Made by a program: the position numbers and the translations under genes
Assembly: GCA_037576195.1 (NCBI GenBank)
Contig: CM075102.1
Span: 21,634,745-21,698,744 of the forward strand
Direction of reading: 5' to 3'
DNA length: 64,000 nucleotides
Source of the DNA: Phytoseiulus persimilis
Lineage: Eukaryota; Arthropoda; Arachnida; Mesostigmata; Phytoseiidae
Shown here: positions 4,896-56,028 of the stretch, in pieces
How positions within the stretch are numbered: the first letter of the stretch is position 1
Layout of the letters: every line of letters starts with the position of its first letter
Notes under the pieces: generated by a model
Told to the model about the DNA's origin: nothing
Database searches by the model: none
What the model saw: the letters and a program-made list of their open reading frames with translations, nothing else

Positions 4896-7800
4896 TCTCT
4901 GCTGTCAATTGTGGGATGCAGCTTCAAAGAGATCCCCGAAAGCGCGCCACCGAGGATTCTCTTTTCTTCACATTCACTTTTTCCTTCTTCTGCCGTTGCT
5001 GTCTGCCCTCAATCTACAAACTTTCACGACAGAGCTCTAATTCGTATCGAACGATCCCGCTTCACCTCGGGCTACTCGCTGCTGTTGTTGCGATGAACCC
5101 GCGCGATTTACCGAGCTCGAATCCGAGTGCGGAATCGGCTCCGCCGATAATCGAGAGGCTTCTCCTGCCATTCGGTTGCTCTCGATGTCTTCGCGAAGTC
5201 TCTGCTCGAACTTGTGGTACGAGGGAGCTGAGAGCTCTGTTTGTTGTAACATCGCCGAAATGTCACGGCGTTTAGATGAGGAAGTAAGAGCAGGACGCTG
5301 ACGGGAGGAACATCGCTGAGCGATGGGGTTCGAATGTGTTCCGTCGATGAAAGTGTCGATAAAGATTCTCTATCACGTTGCTCCGTTGTGCCGGAATAAC
5401 GTCTATCGAGCACTGATCGAATATTTCCTGCGTGATTACCTGAAGGCTGCTCGCCGAGTTCCGTCGTTCCGCTCGCTGAGGCAGCCACGAATCACCATAG
5501 GTCGTCGGAGGTCACTTCCATTACGAAAAAGTCGGTTTCCCTACCGTCCTTGCTTGCGCTTCTGGTTCGACAATCGTTCTTCGTCGACCCCTCCCGCCGA
5601 AGAAAAGGGCTGTTCTCCTTTTTATCGCTGGGCGCTGGAGAGTATTGAGCGAGAACGTCAATCCGGAGAGTGCTCTGCATCTCATACGTGTAGCACCCAT
5701 GTACATGGATGAGACTGCCCATGGGGAATCACTGCGTTGAACGTTTTGAGACGAGATCTCCGAACTCTGCGCTCTTGTCGGCTGTGTTAACTTCGGGTTT
5801 TGAACTCCTTCGAGTTTCGGAACGAAGGTGGACGTCGTGGGACAAAGTTGCTTAAGTGAGCAAAGTTTCGCTCTAACGCGACAGTTCCCTCTTCTCTTCC
5901 CCTCGCCCCCTTGCCACCCGGCAGACATTTCGCCCCGCCAGCTTCTCCCCGGATCTGACCGATTCGAGACATCAGACAAAAAAGCGTCCATGATGGACAA
6001 GCTCAACCTACTCCATGTTTTGTGAGGCTTGCGTGCTTGCACATTGTTCCGACTCTGCTATCCTCCTTTCAGTCCGTTTCCCGGACACCAAGCGATCCCG
6101 AGATACTTTCCCCGAGAGCAGAGCTCTTTGTACGATTTCGAGTACCCTGAAATCTCTCAGGCGGGGGCAAGAGGAGCTGGCGAAGCACATCTCGTTCCCC
6201 ATACGCTCGACGTTGGAGGATTCGTTCCGACGAGACCTTGGTGCTCGTTCCGGAGCTCCCCTAGCTCCAGTTACTCCCCAGGCTGAGCCGCCACATCTCC
6301 TTCTTCATAGACCTTCGGCGGACTCCAGAAGTCCAGCTATTCCTCTTGAAGCATCTGCTCGTTCGGAAAACGCCGCAGCAGCTTCATCAGTGAGCTCGAG
6401 TCGCAGCCGTCCGAGGCTGCTGAAGAGCTGTCGTTTTTCCGCGCCAGAAAAAAGCCTTTGAGATCTGACGTCGCCTTCGGCGAATATTCAGGCCAATTTT
6501 GTAACGTAACGCATCTTGCTCGTGACGGAAGCTCCCCCAGTCATTATTCCGTTTGCTGCCATTTTCCCGTCATTTATGCAGTGCCTCGTCGTCGCTCGCG
6601 AGACGTTTTTTCGCGCTCAGAAATCACTCCGCGCTCTCTGGATGGATCCTCCTCCCCCACCCCTCTCCTCCACTTGCACGGTGAGCGAGTGCCCCCTCCC
6701 CTCGCTTCGGCCATTGTTCGAATTTGAACGCGTACCCGAATATTCAACAATTCTCCCGCTTCCGGCGCCACTTCCGTTTTTAAATCTGCCACCGTTCGCC
6801 CCTTTTTCTCGCCATCTGGGAGGCGGCCAGCCGAACCTTTGCCAGCCGTTCTCCATCCGAGCGTTGAACGGGCGAACCGGCAAGCGCATGTGTGCCCTCC
6901 CGCCACCGACTTTGCGACCCGAGTGACTGAATCCGCTCCGACAACAACTAGGTGTGACTCAGTCAAAGGCGAGCAGTAAATGTCACCGTAAATTCAAAAA
7001 CTAGTACAGCAACGCGAAACGGGGTTGGGAGCGAGTATAAAAATGAGATAAACAGCCAGTTGTGTGTTCGGTCATTAACTTCATCTGAATTCTTATCGGG
7101 ACTGTCCGAGAGGAACACCCGAGCTCGTTCGGAATCATTTTTCATGAAACTACGATGATCTGATCTTGGTCGTGAGATTCGATTTAGAACTCATTCGACT
7201 GATGGTCCGAGTTTCCCTGCGGCGGCAAGAGGATCATTCCAGTGGCCAGGTCCCGCTGACGAACGGACGGACTGACTGACCGAAGCTTTGGATTGAGAGA
7301 ATCCAGACCCGTTATTTTTTCCTATTTCCGCTGCTTGTCTCTTGACTCGCCGTAGTGCAGGGATTTTCAAAATTCCGTGGTGCTTGTGGCCGGGAGAGGA
7401 ACGAGCCGCGGCTGCAAGAAGAGTTGCTCGGACCGCTCCCATATCTCATCTCTTCGTCCACATTCTCGGGTCGTCGACGGCATTGAATTTCATAAATGAC
7501 TCGCTGACAGCGGGACCGCGAATCCAGTGCTTCCCTCCCACATACAGGACGGGAGAAAAGTAAAATATCTCCCAAGACTCCGCTCGGCCGGAAAGATCTT
7601 CAACTTTTGCCCTTTCGATTGGACGAACACAGAACCATCTGTTTACACTTGGCCCTGCGATGCCGGAACCCGAATTTCTCGGAATCCCTCGGCCAAGCTC
7701 TCTGGAGCCATCTTCCCCATCCTAATTTCTACTGAGCATCGAATTCGTTGCACATTCCTCAGCCAGCATGCGAATCTCAAGTTTCGGATTATTCACTGAA

Positions 7801-45700: not shown

Positions 45701-48700
45701 GTTCGTCATGATTTCGTCCAGGAGCACACACTTTACTCGCATGTTTTCCAAAGCGCAGATATACCCAGAACAGGTCATGGCATCTTCGGTCTCCATCTTA
45801 TGAACTACTACAAGCCGCGTTTTCTCCATGTATGCGAACAGATCCGGGTCGTCCTGAAAGAGAAATCCCGCAAACATGAGCTGCCTCGCTGATTCCGACA
45901 CGTAAAAACGAATACGCTCTATGAATTCTGTACCATCACCGTCCCGATCCAACCCCCTCATTCGATTGCCCCTGATGATGACCGCGGCAGAGATAGAGGA
46001 GGCACTTCCACCGGAATTCAGTAGCTTGTGGACTCTTCCACAGTACTCTCTGCTACCGGCAAAGCAAACTCGACGAGCCGAGGTGGAACAACCTGAATAC
46101 GCCTTGCTTGAATTTTGAGAGGGAGTTTCAGTTGATGGGAAGCTTTAGGAATTTCGTGACCTTCGATCTCCAGCACTGAGGGTTGAAGAGTCATTGGGAC
46201 CTTGAAGGCTCCGTCCTGCATATCCCCGACATCAGGACCTCTTCCAGAAGTGAACCGTAAACTGATTTCCATCGCGCGGGCTGAACAAGCCCTGCCGCCA
46301 AAATACGACGGCATGTGGATGAGTGTCTCTCCACGAGCCGACGGAACAGTATCACGGCGTTATGCTGAGCTCGATTGGCGCGAGGGGATACACTTCGGCA
46401 ACCCGTCACTCGGCTCCCTTTGCCGTTTGATATTATTTAGCCAACAGAGAATTCATTTCTCCTCGTTCAAAAACTCCCGCGCCAGTAGAGGGCGCTACGA
46501 ATTGTAAACAAAAGGCGAACAGCTCAGAAGAGCCCATCAGTCAGTATAGTCGTTCCCGACGACAACTGGTTCGAATGTTACGTTTCATGACTCTCAGGAT
46601 CAAAAGGGGGACAGCGCGCGGAGCCTTGATGTTCCTCTTCGTATCGTGAAGTGGGGAAGGTACGGCGAACGCTGCAGTAAGAACAGGAGCTCGAAATTCC
46701 TGAAGCTTGTGAGTCCTCCGAGACCAGCCGACTCGAGGTATCGATCAGCTGAGTGAACGTCTCGCTCGGAAAATGGATATGTACAGGCGACACATCATCG
46801 CCAGCGTTGGTCTCTCCACGGCTTACATAATTTGGCATGCTTATCGGCGATGGAATGACTCTCAATGCCGATGCGGTTTCTGTCAACCCGAAAATCAAGC
46901 CGCACACGGTTACATAGTTGGTTCGCACGACCTGTGGTACAGATGCTCACAAGAGATCATAGACAAAGTCGAGTCGGCGAAATTCATCGCCGTCAACTGT
47001 TATTGGAAAGAGAACTTTCTCCAGCGCCGGAAAGTCGCTCTGATCGCCTTCGCGAGTTGCGCCGATCGGATCACATTCGTTCGGGTCTCCGAGCTTGGTG
47101 ACGTTCCGGACGAGCTCGCGGCAGTATTTCAGGATCCATCGATCATCAAAGTTGGCGTCGATGTCCTCGAGAATGCCGCGAAGCTCCGCGAAGATTACGG
47201 GATCGAAATGTATGGCTGTCTCGATCTCCGGTACATGGCCATGGCGACGCCGGTAATCAAAAGAAAGCTGGTGCAATCTGGCTCGGATCTCTCCCTGTCG
47301 TCGCTGACGGAAACGCTACTTGACGTGAATCTTACGAGAAATCACAAAGTATACTTTTCGGACTGGGAAGCCCCGCAACTCTCCAACGAGCAGATCTACT
47401 ACGTCACGGGACAAGCCATAACAACGTTCGAATTAGCAGTGAAAATTGCGCGCTCATACGGCTTGGTACCTCGAACGATCGGTTACCTCCTGAAGCCCTA
47501 TTTGTGGCTTGAACATTTCATAAGCAATTATTACGCGTCCTACATTGACCTGAACTTCAGTCTAGATCGAGTCTCCCGGCAAACAATATCGTTGAGGTCA
47601 CCGGCGCCAGATGGGAAGGCCATGAAAAGTTACAAAACCCTTAAAACACCTCTGTACGACAACTGCGTGCTCCTGTGTCCCGATATGGAGCATTTGTGCA
47701 CCTGTGACAGGCGCAAGGCGCAGTGGTACCTCGACAACGACCTGGGTGAAAAGATCGAGGAAGATCCGCTCACCGTGCGGCTGAAGTTCGAACCCGCGCA
47801 ACGCGCAATCTTGGATGCCCAATATTATTGCTTGTCGAAGCGCAACATATGTGTCGTCTGTGGATCACCAGACAATCTCGTCCGGAAGTACGTGGTGCCT
47901 CGTGAGTACCGTAAGCACTTTCCGAAGATAATGAAACACCACAACGCGCACGACATCGTTCTCACTTGTCTGAGTTGTCATACCAAATGCTGTTGGTACG
48001 AAGATCTGTTGAAGGAGCAATTCGGTGAGCACTGCGGTGCTCCTCTCAACGAGCCATCCAGAAAGTTTGTGGACAACCAAGAACTCAAGAGGGTTCGCGG
48101 TGCTGGGAACGCACTCCTGAAGGCCAAGAATGAGTTGCCGGAAAGCAGGCGCCAAGAACTCGAGGACGTTCTGAGGGCGCACTTTGACGTAGGCGAGCTC
48201 GATGAGGAGCTCATCGAATTCGCCGCGAACATCGATTATCGGGAAGCCAACGTGGATTATGTGAGCCACGGGAAACGAGTCGTGGATCACTTCGCTAACA
48301 ACGCCGGACTTCTGGTGCTCGAGACAATGTGGCGAGAATATTTCATTCTGAAACTGAGACCGGCGTTCTTGCCAGAACTGTGGTCCACCGATCACCATCA
48401 CGACATCATAGCTGTCAAGCTGAGCTTCATAAAGGAAGCCAATCCCGACGAAGCGACATCTCTTATGAAAAAATTGGGCATCACCCCTCAAGAAGTCGCG
48501 TCGGCTCTGCAGCGATTGAAGGAGCAAGACAACGTTAACTTCAATCGTATCAACTTCCAAAAAGGAAGATTGTTAGAGACGCAGCCGTGAACATCTTTCG
48601 ACCCGTTGTTGTACATTTGAAACTAGCCCTACCATAATGTTATCTTGTACAGCAGAATTGATTATTCTTGTTATAGAGCTATCCCGGGTACCGACCAAGC

Positions 48701-51700
48701 ATCGTGTTCTCATGACATGTGACATAAAATAGGCGGAGCGATCGAAGATTGGCACCTGAGTATTCTCGCGGTCTGGTAATAAATTATCGTTGATTCCCCG
48801 ATGTCTCTCGCCCGATGTTGTTCACATAAGGATCTTAGACTCCTCCTGCTCCGCTACTTTATCGAGCCCAGGAAATACGGTTATAGGTGACTGGGAAGCG
48901 AAAAATTCTCACCCTAGCCCACCGGATGTCCCACACGTCACGACGTTGGAAATCGATGGACTTCGCGACTCCCGATTCGGCTTTGATTTCATAGAAATGT
49001 AGAATTCCAGACATATCTATGATGGACATCATTCTTCAGATGAGACATGGAAGGAGGAAACGACTCGTTGGTTCAACTTGATACGGAAGCTACGTTATTC
49101 GAGAGACGCTACAAGGGTAGACATGGGTTGGGACAGCACTCACGTGACGTCAGAGTTCATGGCTAGCATTTTCGGTCGAACGGTCAAATTGTATCGATGT
49201 GAAACGGAAACGTTTGGCAGAGTGTACCGTTTGATGAGTCCCGACTCAAATGCCTGAAATCATACAAATCACTACTATTGGCAACCAGCCCGAGTTCCAT
49301 TTTCCTTCTGACAGTCCTGCATCGTCCTGATCGGACCGGAAGTCGAACGGTGGTTTCCCCGGGTTGATAATCATTAATAGCGTTTGCATACAAATATACT
49401 GACCACTAACAAGGTTCCTTTCCCTGCACTTAGACAGCAGATTTCTTCGGGTCCAGAATTGAGAGCGAATTTCGATTCCGTCTCAGAGGATATTTTGGAA
49501 ATGCTTCAAGCAAAATGAGACATTGTTTTCGGCTCCCCTCACTAACGGAAGTCTGGCACTCCGTATTCCTGGGAACGATATCGAGAATGTGGGAAACACT
49601 CACATTTTCTGGAGTTTCTTCCCTTGAGCTTCAATGCGTTGCTCAGTATCGTGGAAATGCCAAACGTAGAGGTCATAATGCGAAGCGATAGCGACGACGT
49701 TTCCCGCCATCGCCAACTTAACGGGTTCGCTCTCGATGATAACTTGGTCAACCAAAGCTCCGATGTCATCCCAAACCTCGACATTATACTGTGGAAATCA
49801 CACGAACCGATAGTCGAGAATTGTCTGGCTTGCAAAACTGGTCTCAGTTTCGAATCCATTCATGAAGTAGTTACGTGCCTGATCCGGGATCCCAGCAATG
49901 TTTTTCGATGCAACGGCAGCATATTCCTCGGACGATCCGATACAGAGAACACCCCGACGGAAATTTATATGTTTCTGCGGAAAAAAAAATATCGCGTTGT
50001 CCACGGAGAACCGCGATCGGGAATCTTCCTCATTAATCAACGGAAAGCATGACCTGCAGCTCGAACCTGTTCAGTTCTGGTGTCCCATAAAGTGAAACAC
50101 TGTTCCGCTCGATCTGGTTTCGAGTGCGTGAATAGTACAGAGTCTCCGAAGTAGGTCCATGTATAGTCAGGTCTCACGTTGACAAAGTATACGAAGGAGT
50201 CCACAGAGATGGCGAGACGGAGCCCGGTTCCCTCCCATGTGCAACCTGGAAGGAGGTTCTCATCGCGTTCGGTTTCGGATACCACCAAGGTGCCAGGAGA
50301 GAATCGGTTACCTGGAGCTGACTTTTGTAACTTGCAAACCAGCAACAACCGAACCTGTTATATGCTTCCCGGGTACCACGAGGGTGTGGAGGTAATTTCC
50401 CTGGTTGCTGAACAGCTTGATCACGTTTCGCTTATCAGGATCCCTGGTCTGGAGCAGACGTCCGATGACAGCAATCATGGTTCCCTGAGGCGACCACTCG
50501 ATACCGGCAATCACCATGTCGCAATCGATTACAATTGGAGCTGTTGCCAAAATTTGCTCGAAGTTAGTGCAGACCTATGCTCTTGAGTGATCGAGGTATC
50601 GCGGAGCCCGACTGCGGCCAGGTTTCTCCGGCAGGCAGGCTGGCGAGCGTTCTAAGACCAACTGTTCGTCGACTTGTGAGCACTTAACGACAGATAGAAA
50701 CATAAGGTTGCATATCAGGCAAATCTTACACGGATCCACTTCTTTTTTCAGCAGCTGCAAATGGCCATCATCGGTTACGATAGCCAACATGTGGTTCTCA
50801 CTCTCATGGCCGGGCCGTTCAGGCGGTCCCTTCTTGAACCACTTAATCATTGAAATCACGGAGTTTGGAGTCAGCAGGTTGACACTCATCCTCGACTGGA
50901 TCAATGGGAAAATGAATCAGTCAATCATCAACACCAGAATCGATACATCTAAAATCTACGCAATCCGGGTTTCAAAACTCGCCCTCCCAGTCGCGGATGC
51001 TCACCACGAAATTGCCGGCCTGATCGTAGATGTGCACTTCACCCGATCGCAACCCGAATAGGATAAGCCGACCGTCAGCGGACCACTGTAAACGACAGAA
51101 GGCCTGAGTTCACTGGAAGATCCGCACCGAGTATCCCTTGCTACTCGTCGGTTGCGCGCTGACCTCGACGATTTGAAGTGAAACTCCCTTGAGTTCTTTC
51201 CCCCATAGACGATTTCCGTCCACAGATCCCACAATTATGGCTCCGTCGTCGTAGATGATGCAGATTTTTGAGCCGTCTCCCGACCACGACATTCCTCGCA
51301 CAACGCTCTTGTTCCTATTGTTTATCATTTCCTCACACCACGAGCCCTTGTGCAGCATCCAGACAATTATGAGTCCGGAGGAGTCAGATGTGGTCAGTCT
51401 CTGATGTTTCTCGTTCCAGACCATCATCTGGACCGAGCCTGCATGTATAGAGTCTCTCTGAATTAGATTCCAATGATCTCAAGGAATACGGACGCCGAGT
51501 TCGATTCGATACAATCTCGGGAAAATTCTGGTCGAAGCTTCAAGGCTTTGAGGTACCGTTATGTCCGTCCAGAGTTTGATTCATTGAAAGGTTCGACGGC
51601 GCCACCAGGCCCTCTTTGGAGCTCTCAAGTTTCAAAACTTTTAGCAGCCCTTCATCGCCGCCGACAGCAATATAGCCGTCCTCCTGATTCCACGAAATGC

Positions 51701-51906
51701 ATCTCAGATTCACTTGATTCGGAATCGCGATCTGAAGGAAGAGTTGTCGTTAGGAATTGAACATTCGGGTCTAATGTCGAGCTGCATGTACAAGCAGCTC
51801 ATTGTCAGCGGAACAAGCCAATGGGAATAGAACTGAGATGTTCTCGCGCTCCTCGAAACGCTTGCGGGGGGTAGAGAAATACCTTTTTACTCAAATAGAT
51901 GAACAT
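42718..51906 (-). CDS. WDR35: WDR35 / IFT121, intraflagellar transport complex A subunit (21 exons)
   Basis: IFT-A subunit needed for retrograde ciliary transport and membrane cargo import. I traced exons (5' to 3') at 51906-51883, 51731-51557, 51438-51164, 51085-51005, 50895-50730, 50540-50355, 50245-50067, 49974-49879, 49788-49604, 49503-49404, 49253-49144, 49033-48913, 45853-45561, 45476-45273, 45129-44986, 44835-44643, 44490-44318, 43757-43571, 43479-43350, 43205-43007 and 42904-42718. Every junction keeps phase, giving 3,408 nt and 1,135 residues; vertebrate WDR35 has about 1,170-1,180. Recalled vertebrate landmarks reappear in order: MFIYLSKK start, [37 protein letters not shown]-like [70 protein letters not shown], and zinc knuckles CPTC, CGQC, CPLC at the end. 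Two WD40 propellers precede an alpha-solenoid. Intron 8 starts with GC instead of GT. Intron 12 (45854-48912) hosts a gene on the other strand. The exon 9/10 junction is the least certain; a 22-nt microexon at 49547-49568 would also keep phase. Confidence 0.95.
46773..48590 (+). CDS. EXD2-like protein A, intronless, predicted inactive exonuclease (605 aa)
   Basis: The product aligns along its length with EXD2, the 3'-5' exonuclease domain protein of the mitochondrial outer membrane. Order: N-terminal membrane anchor (residues about 8-22), DEDDy exonuclease fold (about 68-230), the EXD2-specific block TPLYDNC (292-298) with [13 protein letters not shown] (309-321), and an HNH-like zinc region with C360/C363, [12 protein letters not shown]393-D394 and C399/C402-H403. 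[10 protein letters not shown] and IKVGVD are preserved. The exonuclease ligands are not: the motif I D-x-E is N75-C76-Y77, the motif II Asp is N134 and the motif III Asp is Q214. Nuclease activity of this domain is therefore unlikely, while the zinc region looks intact. The ATG has A at -3 and G at +4. An Inr-like TCAGT lies near 46537-46541. The gene is a single exon inside WDR35 intron 12, antisense to the host, as expected of an old retrocopy. Family assignment is firm; role is unknown. Confidence 0.9.
   Translation: MDMYRRHIIASVGLSTAYIIWHAYRRWNDSQCRCGFCQPENQAAHGYIVGSHDLWYRCSQEIIDKVESAKFIAVNCYWKENFLQRRKVALIAFASCADRITFVRVSELGDVPDELAAVFQDPSIIKVGVDVLENAAKLREDYGIEMYGCLDLRYMAMATPVIKRKLVQSGSDLSLSSLTETLLDVNLTRNHKVYFSDWEAPQLSNEQIYYVTGQAITTFELAVKIARSYGLVPRTIGYLLKPYLWLEHFISNYYASYIDLNFSLDRVSRQTISLRSPAPDGKAMKSYKTLKTPLYDNCVLLCPDMEHLCTCDRRKAQWYLDNDLGEKIEEDPLTVRLKFEPAQRAILDAQYYCLSKRNICVVCGSPDNLVRKYVVPREYRKHFPKIMKHHNAHDIVLTCLSCHTKCCWYEDLLKEQFGEHCGAPLNEPSRKFVDNQELKRVRGAGNALLKAKNELPESRRQELEDVLRAHFDVGELDEELIEFAANIDYREANVDYVSHGKRVVDHFANNAGLLVLETMWREYFILKLRPAFLPELWSTDHHHDIIAVKLSFIKEANPDEATSLMKKLGITPQEVASALQRLKEQDNVNFNRINFQKGRLLETQP
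48778..48783 (+). terminator. Poly(A) signal of EXD2-like gene A
   Basis: AATAAA about 190 bases past the TGA at 48590. It lies before WDR35 exon 12 (48913-49033), so the nested transcript can end within the host intron. Confidence 0.55.
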
Positions 51907-52104
51907 TTCAGAGCTGGGAAGCTTCTGTTTTGCTTTCAATGTTTACCAGCCGAATCCGTGATAGCTCCATACAGCGTTTCTATGGGGACCGCGATACAAT
52001 GGGCTATCGGAGCTTCCATACCCATATGCGTCCGAGCGCACTCCTCGATAAATCCATGAATATGTTTCACGATCTCAAATCTACAAGAGATATCTGAGAT
52101 GAGG

Positions 52105-52790
52105 TCAAATGTCAGGGTCTCCGACTTTCATCCAAGTAATATCGCACGGCCGGACCCGGTGTATGGGGAGGATGCGCGGGTCACCAAGTTCACTCGAACT
52201 GATATACCGTCTGTTATTCGCTGGAAAAGGAGTGGGCCGCTGAATATGAGCTTCGGTAATAACTTGGCCACACTTGAAGAGTGTGGCAGCGCGGTTAAGG
52301 GCATTCATTCGTGTCGGACAAACACCGCAGGTACAGCCCTCATGACGAGATGATGATTTTCGTCGAAATTGGACACACATTGCGAAGTTGAGTCAACCCT
52401 TTGAAGGTGACCCGAAAGGTTCTGCCGCCGACATGAATGTAGAAAGGCTCTACGGGTATGGAGCAGTTTTCTCGGCTATTCGGCGTAACGATTGTCTTGC
52501 TTCCAGGATCATCCAGAGGTTTTCGAAAAGTCGTTCCATCGAGAATCGACGAACACATTCCTTATCGAAGGTAGCCCTACCACAACTCTTCTCGTTGTGC
52601 GGACGGCTACTGCGCAAAACCTGAACGGAGCACTTGGAGGATGACCTGAAAATCGGTGTCGTCGATTCGGCTGGAATTCCTTGGACTTCATCAGCTCATC
52701 AAACTGCGCTTGAAGCCGTTCCACGAGCCCCGAGAATTCTCTCGAACATGATTGACCCTCCCCAGGTAGCTCCCACGTGATAACCACAGA
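52105..52790 (-). pseudogene. Possible decayed or unresolved coding sequence
   Basis: Successive minus-strand frames show protein-like composition but jump frame. Examples: LVERLQAQFDELMKSKEF (about 52680-52740); a one-base-shifted continuation IDDTDFQVILQVLRS; ERLFENLWMILEARQ near 52520; PFYIHVGGRTFRVTFKGL near 52415; and SSELGDPRILPIHRVRPCDI near 52130-52190. Frames change without clean GT-AG boundaries, suggesting frameshift decay. Very short introns or sequence errors could also explain it. I do not recognise the family. It lies just upstream of WDR35 on the same strand and could belong with the candidate exon at 52956-53106. Confidence 0.25.
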
Positions 52791-52955
52791 TTATGCATAG
52801 GAGGGGGCATAAGCGTATCAGGACACTTCTGAGATGATTTCGAAGTCAACATAAGCGATTCACAGGAAACACTTAGGCCTCGTGAGAAGCAGGTAGATCG
52901 CTACTGTTCTGGCTCTAACTTCAAAGGCGAGAACAGACAAGAATTAAGAACCAAC

Positions 52956-53106
52956 CATGAAGAATGTCGATGTCACGCATCTGTTCTAATTTGAACCATA
53001 TCTGGAGGGCGAAGGCTCGCGGATTTTGTTCAAAAAGTACACTCCAACAAGTGTCGATTCTGGGCCTCCTCCGGAATTCGGAATCCGACTGCATTGACTC
53101 CTCCAT
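52956..53106 (-). CDS. Candidate first exon of an unidentified gene
   Basis: The frame starts at ATG 53106 with A at -3 and G at +4. It encodes about 50 residues of well-mixed composition (MEESMQSDSEFRRRP, then FEQNPRAFALQIWFKLEQ, then RDIDILH). It reaches a plausible donor, CATG|GTTGGT, at 52956/52955, leaving phase 1. A next exon cannot be placed with confidence; the best in-frame candidate is the decayed-looking sequence at 52105-52790. No family is recognised. Chance ORF is the alternative. Confidence 0.28.
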
Positions 53107-54644
53107 ACTCTCGGATCGCTATTTTCTTCAGAGATCTGGGCCGAAGAAGAAAAGAACACCCTTCAACAACGATGTTGTTCCGAATAGATATTTTCGAAGA
53201 AGGAATCTAGAGATCCGTGGTCGGTCGCTTTCGGAAATTGAGGGAGGCCGCCATAAAAATCATATCGGGTCCATTCTAGAACGATTTTCTATGGTTCTTT
53301 ACGATCGGGTATGAAGTGAGCCGAAGCAACATTGATTCTCTTTAGTATTCCGCCCCACGGAACTCAAGGATTTTTTCGAGCAGATCCGACATGAGCGATT
53401 TTGTAATTTTCCTGGTTATCACCCGTTTTTCCGATTTCTCTCCTCATTTACATCCCTACTTCAGGATCCCTCTTTGGTAACTGCAGTAGCATCCAACTTG
53501 CGTAACGAAAAGCCTCTGTTGAGTCCTCACGTGCATCTTGGTAGCCGTGCAACTTCTGAAGAGATCCTTCAGCGCATCCGAGAGGGAATATTCGTTACCG
53601 AGCTAAAATTATCCGAGTCAATAGTTTCTAGGATCAGCAAGCATTCCGAGTTCTCATTGGTGGACAACAGATTATTATTGTCACCCTCATCCGGGATCGA
53701 TTGAGCACACTGATCTCCCTCACACCCATCAAGGATTCTCATTCGCTCAGCGTAAACTGCAATAGCGTGAGGGTTCGTGATGCTCACTAGCGTGGCCAGG
53801 GGTTGACTTCAGCTACCTTCCATACTTCCAAGCTCATATGCATTTTGAGATTCCTCATCGAGAACCTGTTCTCCGAGTTTAGTCTGAATAGTTCACTCGC
53901 TAGCCTTGAATGATCTCCTGAGTTCTGGGGTTATGCCGAAAGAGAATAGCGGATGGTCATGGTCGATAGCGCAGTTCATATCATACTGTTACCTTGCATC
54001 ATGTGAGCATAGGGCTGAAATGTCTTCCTGAGTTTTCGGAACAGATTGTGCCTTCACCCCCAGTGAAAGAAAGAGTTGGGTTTTACTTCAAATAGATGCA
54101 TCGTTACTGCCTACGTTTGATAAGACTACGCATCGCAAGTCTCCCGTCTGAGATGAAAACCTCAAAACTCGAGCAATATCATCAACCTCAATCGCGTCGG
54201 TACAACTCCGATGGAATGTTCATAATCGGGGGCGACCAGAGGTGTGACCGATACGAATTTTTGAGTTTCCTCTTGGAAGCAGGCTTGCTTTTGGCTGAAA
54301 AGATAGCGCCGTCTCCGATCGGGCCTCCTGATCGGAGGCCTCATTCGGAATTGATTTCCGACCCGAACTCCGCAGCTTCGTTTTGCAGGCTGTCTGGAAA
54401 CTTGATAACAGTTCGTCCCGGAAACGGTGAAGGTTCTGCGACTCTGGTCGTCCGAGTTTTTGAAGAGTCGTTAAAGAAATAGCATCTCCAAGCGAGCGCG
54501 AACCCTTCTTCTACAGTCCCTCGTCAGCTCTGAGCATAGGAGAGGACATCCCTGATCCGAAGAGATCCCTTTCCCAGATCTGGTTACTCTCCGAAACATC
54601 CATTCACAAGGGAAAACTCCTTGAAATGCATGGAATTTTGAAAA
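53107..54644. other. No supportable gene
   Basis: Intergenic DNA between the 52-53 kb candidate and EXD2-like gene B. An open frame at 54096-54482 (+) has no recognisable domain. A small element at 54315-54340 can fold two ways: CCGATC with GATCGG, or GGCCTCC with GGAGGCC. Confidence 0.5.
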
Positions 54645-54650
54645 TTTATT
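54645..54650 (-). terminator. Poly(A) signal overlapping the stop codon of EXD2-like gene B
   Basis: The minus strand reads GAATAAATTTTC. The TAA stop (54648-54646) is contained within the AATAAA hexamer. If used, the 3' UTR would be only a few tens of bases. Confidence 0.5.
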
Positions 54651-56028
54651 CTTCCGACGCGGCTGATTGCGGCATCAGTGCGGGAATCATTTGTAGAATG
54701 AAGTGTTCTCGCCAAATTTCCTGCAGCAGCAGGAGCTTATGATCCGGCCATCTTTCACTAACAAGCTTTCCGTGATACTCGAAGCTCACGATGGGGATTC
54801 GGTAATCCACAGACGCGGCGGCACGGATGATTTCCTCGTTCAACTCTTCGACTTCGAAGGCTTGCATCAAGCAATTCTCTAATCTCCATCGACGTTCTTC
54901 GGATAAGGTGTCCCGATGCTGCAGAAGCATGTTACCCGCCTCACGAAGTTCTTTGAGATCATCGTCTTCATGATAGGGCCGATCGGGGTCTATGATTGGC
55001 GCGTCGAAGAACTTTTCCAGTTGTTGTTTGAGGATGTCCTGCGAGCACCGAAACTCATCCTCGCATCCCCCACACAGGATGAGCGTACAGTTGGGGCGCT
55101 GGTCAAACGTGTGGTGATATTCTTCTGGGACGATGTAAGCGTAGGTCAAATCAGCAGTGATTCCGCAGAAAAAGCAGATGTTCAACGGCTCACTAGGCGC
55201 GGACGATTCCAAAGGGAGTTGAACTCGCGTCAATCTCTCGACTCGGAAGGGCACATCCGCGTACATCGCGAACTCATGGCTTATGAAGTGTTCGAGCCAG
55301 TATTCTGGTCGTAAAGCCCCAAGTACATATGGGATTGCACCGCTCCTGCAACAAATTTCCCGAGTGACCTCGAATATGCTCACCGCTCGCTCGGCAAGAT
55401 CGTGGTTCTGTTCGGTAGAGGGCTCCCTCCCGATCCAGTCCCTCGCGTGCATCTGTCTGTCGCTAGCGACGTGAACGCCGAGTACCGTCTTCGAGAGAGT
55501 GCTCAACGAGAGATCCGCGCGGGCAAGGAGCAGCTCATGCCTCAAGGCCGGTGACTTCATTGCGATGTACCGAAGATCGATGCAGCCTTGGAGCTCGATG
55601 CCGCAGTCCTTCTTGAGCGAGGCTGCGCTGTCAACGATGTCCACACCAACTTTTATGATGCTGGGATCATCCAGCACGTGCTCAAGCTCCTCTGGTATCT
55701 GAGTGAACTCAGATAGTTTGAAAAGAGTCACTTCTTGCTTCGAGGCGACTAGGCTCAAACTCACGATTTTCGGCGGATCGATGGGGCTCACTTCCCACTG
55801 GAAATCGACTGCGATCACCTTTGACGCATTGACGCTGTTCAGAAAAGCGCTCTTGGAACGTTTCCACGCTGAGTGGGAGTCGAAAACTGAATATCGAACT
55901 GCACGGCATTGAAGCCCATTTTCACAGCGGTCCTTCTGGACGGTTCTCCACTTGCGGTACCCGTAGAGTCCAAGGTATGCGAAAGAAGCCGTGACGGCAA
56001 ACACAATCTGGCTGTTGCTCATGTCCAT
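54646..56028 (-). CDS. EXD2-like protein B, intronless and shortened, predicted inactive exonuclease (460 aa)
   Basis: A paralogue of the protein at 46773-48590, colinear over the first 250 residues: MDM start, N-terminal membrane anchor about 8-24, IKVGVD, GCIDLRYIAM, WLEHFIS. The motif I D-x-E is D75-F76-Q77, the motif II Asp is S134 and the motif III Asp is R214, with the preceding motif III Tyr also lost (D210). It keeps one acidic ligand of four, so exonuclease activity is unlikely. The block with [13 protein letters not shown] is deleted. In the HNH-like region the Cys pairs C285/C288 and C319/C322 remain, but the His-Asp pair and final CH are gone. The C-terminus ends soon after REHFILQMIP, lacking the tail of paralogue A. 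The ATG has AAC before it, a strong context. The frame is intact over 460 codons, arguing for selection or recent origin. Function is unknown. Confidence 0.88.
   Translation of the reverse strand: MDMSNSQIVFAVTASFAYLGLYGYRKWRTVQKDRCENGLQCRAVRYSVFDSHSAWKRSKSAFLNSVNASKVIAVDFQWEVSPIDPPKIVSLSLVASKQEVTLFKLSEFTQIPEELEHVLDDPSIIKVGVDIVDSAASLKKDCGIELQGCIDLRYIAMKSPALRHELLLARADLSLSTLSKTVLGVHVASDRQMHARDWIGREPSTEQNHDLAERAVSIFEVTREICCRSGAIPYVLGALRPEYWLEHFISHEFAMYADVPFRVERLTRVQLPLESSAPSEPLNICFFCGITADLTYAYIVPEEYHHTFDQRPNCTLILCGGCEDEFRCSQDILKQQLEKFFDAPIIDPDRPYHEDDDLKELREAGNMLLQHRDTLSEERRWRLENCLMQAFEVEELNEEIIRAAASVDYRIPIVSFEYHGKLVSERWPDHKLLLLQEIWREHFILQMIPALMPQSAASEE

Follow-up and report, generated by a model that had tools for sequence, protein, structure and literature searches.

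Human EXD2 is a protein whose role and place in the cell are disputed, and nuclear DNA repair, translation in the mitochondrial matrix and the outer mitochondrial membrane have all been proposed, with one group locating it at the outer membrane and disputing the matrix location given by another (PMC5876329). At the outer mitochondrial membrane it is reported to bind RNA (PMC8370977). It is further reported to digest RNA-DNA hybrids slowly while also co-condensing with and shielding them non-catalytically (PMC13425236). Here we describe two EXD2 paralogues, copies A and B, which lie in a stretch of 64,000 nucleotides from Phytoseiulus persimilis (assembly GCA_037576195.1, contig CM075102.1, positions 21,634,745 to 21,698,744, forward strand). 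This whole stretch is called the window, and coordinates of A and B are window positions. Together with copy C, which is not linked to them, A and B are probably pseudonucleases of the EXD2 family kept for a non-cutting role, a reading that we hold with moderate confidence.

Pseudonucleases as such are already established, and none derived from EXD2 was met in a limited literature search. EXD1, Maelstrom and Exuperantia are named as animal pseudonucleases, and the fungal pseudonucleases of the Ssd1 / Dis3L2 type are reported to have lost the active site repeatedly, sometimes after duplication, with the other domains conserved (PMC8097288). The PXL module of PML-1, reported as a nucleic-acid-binding module and discussed in the terms pseudonuclease and DEDD, belongs to a protein different from the EXD2 copies (PMC12934764). 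Loss of EXD2 is reported for the mite Demodex (PMC9218549), which gives a precedent for an animal without it; there the gene itself is reported as gone, whereas catalytically dead copies persist here. Ssd1 and Dis3L2 follow the same evolutionary logic as A and B, but they are fungal and of the RNase II family. EXD1, Maelstrom and Exuperantia resemble A and B in having an exonuclease fold with an incomplete catalytic set, and are RNA-binding in the known cases. All three have the DEDD fold, and we take them to stand on other branches of descent, the parent here being EXD2.

Copy A (605 amino acids) occupies 46773..48590 on the plus strand and copy B (460 amino acids) 54646..56028 on the minus strand, each as an intronless, single-frame open reading frame (ORF). 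With 41.9 and 34.5 bits, respectively, both are above the cut-off of 23.6 bits for PF01612, the Pfam 3'-5' exonuclease family, and the matched domain comprises residues 60-226 of A (46950..47450, plus strand) and 61-206 of B (55411..55848, minus strand). The top PDB match for A, B and C was human EXD2, 6k17, with E 2.4e-17 for A and 6.4e-10 for B. The first-pass annotation of the window had placed these two EXD2-family genes with exact coordinates. Both are real, but they are not the only copies, since the family includes C, D and E plus fragments.

The catalytic columns were read against human EXD2, in which the acids are D108, E110, D171 and D246 and the catalytic tyrosine is Y242. Copy A has N75 and Y77 in motif I (46995..47003), N134 instead of D171 in motif II (47160..47174) and Q214 instead of D246 in motif III (47400..47414), where the tyrosine, Y210, is retained; none of the four acids is left. 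In copy B, motif I (55798..55806) retains D75 and has Q77 instead of E110, motif II (55627..55641) has S134 instead of D171, and in motif III (55387..55401) D210 and R214 replace Y242 and D246, which leaves one acid of four and no tyrosine. Copy C shows the same D, Q, S and R as B, likewise one acid of four, and asparagine at the tyrosine site. The residue numbers first annotated for the four columns proved exact when the letters were rechecked on this alignment. The accompanying claim that both copies had lost the DEDDy ligands is true in full for A, which lost four, but B lost three and kept D75, its tyrosine being gone besides. Different losses had been claimed for each copy. Part of the loss is indeed independent, because the first column is D in B and C but not in A, where its loss is A's own; the losses of B and C, however, look shared. 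On these columns, A and B are predicted to have lost nuclease activity.

The fold motifs GC(L/I)D(L/I)RY and IIKVGV are retained in A, B and C. The annotation had listed IKVGVD among the conserved motifs, but its final aspartate is derived (residue 130 in A and B, residue 128 in C), the residue being glycine in human EXD2 and in copy E. In the window, the codon of this aspartate lies at 47160-47162 for A and at 55639-55641 for B. It is common to A, B and C and possibly part of a new pocket function. When the neighbourhood of the columns was checked for shifted ligands, A had no restoring residue, and B had D75, D130, D133, D210 and E213 at or beside the columns. Copy B, and perhaps C, could on this ground be a residual or rebuilt nuclease, which would bind metal via D75 with D130, D133, D210 or E213 and cut in a modified way, and the shared aspartate four residues ahead of the third acid would suit such a site. 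We consider this quite unlikely. Copy C, the closest intact relative of B, has the same D/Q/S/R without equivalents of D133 and D210, and A has neither the D nor the E of motif I. In addition, nuclease-dead human EXD2 is reported not to restore function (PMC9859823), and the known activity therefore depends on the site.

Copy C was found by genome search on contig C2 from position 15219374; it is intact, intronless, 467 amino acids long and 54% identical to B. The open frame runs for 605 codons in A, 460 in B and 467 in C. In neutral simulations (substitutions only, 0.3 per site) 0/2000 frames stayed open for each of the three, so the intact frames are not a matter of chance. A comparison of 458 codons of B and C gave a ratio of nonsynonymous to synonymous divergence (omega) of 0.22, with dN 0.41 and dS 1.85; the doubled log-likelihood difference (2dlnL) of 101.9 rejects omega = 1. 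An omega of 1 was also rejected for the exonuclease part alone (2dlnL 50.0, dS saturated) and for the C-terminus alone (omega 0.34, 2dlnL 20.8), as well as between A and B (2dlnL 161.5), where dS is saturated as it is for A against C and E. A ratio near 1, which had been proposed as a sign of pseudogenes, was therefore not found. Since B and C have D/Q/S/R in common at dS 1.85, these copies have long been preserved in the dead state. It is old and under selection rather than in decay, and this is best resolved for the B-C pair.

Decay does occur in this family. Copy D, on contig C2 from position 21271324, is a DNA-level duplicate of C with 84.7% and 83.1% identity over two stretches extending into the flanks, and it is broken by deletions of 71, 7 and 1 bases plus a stop; the 71-base deletion takes out motif I. 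Codon-position counts between C and D, polarised by B, were 12/7/17 on the C branch and 12/13/18 on the D branch, with 6/3/17 ambiguous; they go in the expected direction but are small and not decisive. A C-terminal piece of D (L030 4547-4870, C2 ~21.272 Mb), which holds DHIVPLEYH, scores above the Pfam HNH cut-off with 23.8 vs 21.4 bits. Fragments are found elsewhere in the genome. An isolated one on contig C1:73250 (L029 4751-4902) is 90% identical to E over a 153-base alignment and lies near an ORF which we take, from its motif, to be reverse-transcriptase-like. A decayed B-like piece on contig C3:15217393 (L035 4394-4780) has 38-40% protein identity and two stops. With such remains at hand, A and B might be thought ordinary decaying copies as well, young and unconstrained like D. 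The long open frames, the outcome of the simulations and the low omega make this highly improbable, and for B and C they contradict it.

An intron-containing EXD2 with an intact DxE motif, which the annotation had suggested looking for, was found once, but its frame is broken. This locus E (contig C1:16386796-16388639) is of the canonical type with all four acids, in DCEW, DD and RDA, and its tyrosine codon falls right at a frame break. The frame carries four one-base shifts (near L028 5100, 5475, 5855 and 6325) and one TGA at 5631. One GT-AG intron of 87 bases is present in E and absent from A, B and C; the latter may have originated as retrocopies, though one intron is too few to tell this from intron loss. 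Beside E, an ORF piece on the minus strand (L028 3284-3568) is presumably part of a reverse transcriptase of a non-LTR (long terminal repeat) retrotransposon, judged from its motif. No second EXD2 locus with all four acids was found in protein and DNA searches of the genome, read exon by exon. These searches read exons singly and score the best candidates alone, and the Pfam search of the genome gave 8 matches but missed locus E itself.

Two conserved families served as controls for the assembly. For HSP70, 5 of 27 matches span at least 598 of 599 positions in one stop-free frame, and for TCP1 4 of 19 span at least 466 of 490; the assembly is therefore not generally broken. The remaining matches were mostly shorter pieces. 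Some matches weaken the control: one long TCP1 match has three stops, a short TCP1 match two and a short HSP70 match one, and a long HSP70 match ends at 523; the stops may be introns that were read through. Probably, locus E became a pseudogene only recently. Its breaks may instead be an error of the assembly at this place, and its frame is to be taken as broken in this assembly only; against such an error stand the open frames of A, B and C and the long control frames.

The copies differ in which part of EXD2 they resemble most. Over its length, A is collinear with human EXD2, with a hydrophobic N-terminus, a DEDDy-type domain, a CTCD linker, a Cys4/HNH-like module and a C-tail, the human sequence outside the exonuclease domain being provisional. 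Unlike human EXD2, A lost the four acids, and B lost three acids plus the tyrosine, approximately 74 linker residues (an alignment gap) and the HNxHD motif; both have the derived D130. In the exonuclease-domain tree with WRN as outgroup, A, B and C form one clade with 100% bootstrap and E and human EXD2 fall outside, the exact place of E having 54%. In unrooted trees the A+B+C split received 99% for the C-terminus and 100% for the full length. Within the exonuclease domain E is closer to human (68/163 identical, 42%) than A is (54/176, 31%). Against the provisional human sequence the order is opposite in the CTCD linker (E 26/66, A 38/67) and in the whole C-terminus (E 97/261, 37%; A 118/272, 43%), and in the HNH-like stretch A has 34/68. 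Among columns with a single match to human, E has 34 vs 15 for A in the exonuclease domain and 31 vs 51 in the C-terminus (Fisher p = 0.0006). Branch lengths agree with this, being 0.57 for E and 1.59 for the path to A in the exonuclease domain, and 1.24 and 0.88, respectively, in the C-terminus. The pattern suggests a complementary loss between E and A by domain.

Two further explanations were considered. In the first, A or B would be a dead subunit that joins an active EXD2 in a heteromer and regulates this partner, its task being the shape of the heteromer and not independent nucleic-acid binding; catalytically dead paralogues that activate their partners are known (PMC5201418, PMC3663545), and the retained fold motifs of A, B and C would allow it. 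We regard it as unlikely, since E is the one candidate found for the active partner and its frame is broken in this assembly, and since the domain in which A resembles human more is not the one in which E does, a pattern that fits a division of labour better than a partnership. In the second, the dead exonuclease fold would be a platform and the HNH-like module would do the work as a neofunctionalised enzyme. A is closest to the provisional human sequence in the CTCD linker and in the HNH-like stretch, which speaks for it, as does the piece of broken copy D above the HNH cut-off. This match also supports the idea that the C-terminal module of EXD2 may be of HNH origin. However, the HNH profile gave only E 0.22 for A and 0.2 for C, both below the Pfam cut-off, the site of the HNH histidine is N in the provisional human sequence and Y in A, and B and C are without the CTCD linker. 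We find such an enzyme improbable, to about the same degree as a rebuilt nuclease in B.

The features outside the exonuclease domain are located as follows. Residues 8-24 of A, followed by RRW, form a hydrophobic stretch (46794..46844, plus strand), a putative membrane anchor and a weak assignment by position; the hydrophobic 17-mer occupies residues 8-24 in all three copies, and its mean Kyte-Doolittle value is 1.29 in A, 1.49 in B and 1.69 in C, compared with 2.09 in the provisional human sequence. The motif at residues 309-320 of A (47697..47732, plus strand) has the same letters as the provisional human sequence. The Cys4 module is present in A, B and C, and the CTCD linker in A only, as compared with the provisional human C-terminus. 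In A this HNH-like zinc-type module has C360..C363 / C399..C402 (47850..47978, plus strand), and in B the zinc-type module has C285..C288 / C319..C322 (55063..55176, minus strand).

Pseudonucleases kept for a role other than exonuclease, as proposed in the first-pass annotation, are thus the reading to which the ligand columns, open frames and omega point. Most likely, by analogy with human EXD2, A, B and C would act as anchored nucleic-acid-binding or scaffold proteins. An ancestral EXD2 would have duplicated. In the line represented by locus E, the C-terminal region would have drifted but the metal-dependent exonuclease site would have stayed. A second line, leading to A, B and C, would have lost the DEDDy ligands and retained the fold motifs and the N-terminal hydrophobic stretch, A retaining the C-terminal Cys4/HNH-like region too and the B/C branch additionally shedding the CTCD linker. 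The anchor would probably hold the proteins at the mitochondrial outer membrane, where human EXD2 is reported to lie. RNA or RNA-DNA ends would be bound by the dead exonuclease fold together with the C-terminal module, and would thereby be shielded or tethered. The fold motifs, the hydrophobic N-terminus and the C-terminal module that the dead copies retain fit binding or shielding. It is conceivable, though doubtful, that in this lineage the domains of EXD2 were divided among copies, the exonuclease staying with one and the C-terminal module with the other, and that the exonuclease copy was then lost, so that the animal would have only catalytically dead EXD2 proteins.

Several points weigh against the pseudonuclease interpretation. 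The exonuclease domain has diverged overall and not only at the ligands, as A retains 34, B 29 and C 27 of the 68 columns in which human and E agree. The selection test comes from one genome and mainly from the B-C pair, since dS of A is saturated to every copy. The N-terminal stretch of A is only mildly hydrophobic. The AlphaFold2 models, made from a two-row alignment, have a mean predicted local distance difference test score of 35.8 for A and 38.3 for B and are too poor to show an intact pocket. The human C-terminus is a provisional sequence, although the exonuclease part of the same human sequence matches the PDB letters. Finally, a further intron-split EXD2 could have escaped the genome searches, as the Pfam search missed E.

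The window has 40 ORFs that run from stop to stop over 150 amino acids or more; seven of these other than A and B gave no match above the Pfam cut-off. Matches of copy B to designed TIM barrels in a structure-library search were rejected as chance, no single stretch being significant alone. Genes with exonuclease domains also occur elsewhere in the genome (L001, L002, L004 and L006), with DAEG in L002 and DAEW in L004 at motif I. We take these four to be of EXOSC10, EXD1/Egalitarian and Mut-7/Nibbler type.

The possible loss of the sole active EXD2 copy found is the main interest of this locus. A lineage that discards the catalytic site while selecting the fold and the C-terminal module would be a natural experiment separating the roles of EXD2, and the finding points to the C-terminal module and to nucleic-acid binding. 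It offers a way to test the protection without catalysis that is reported for human EXD2 (PMC13425236), through the question of which parts are always retained in evolution. If the split by domain and the loss of the exonuclease copy are true, the indispensable conserved function of EXD2 would be non-catalytic.

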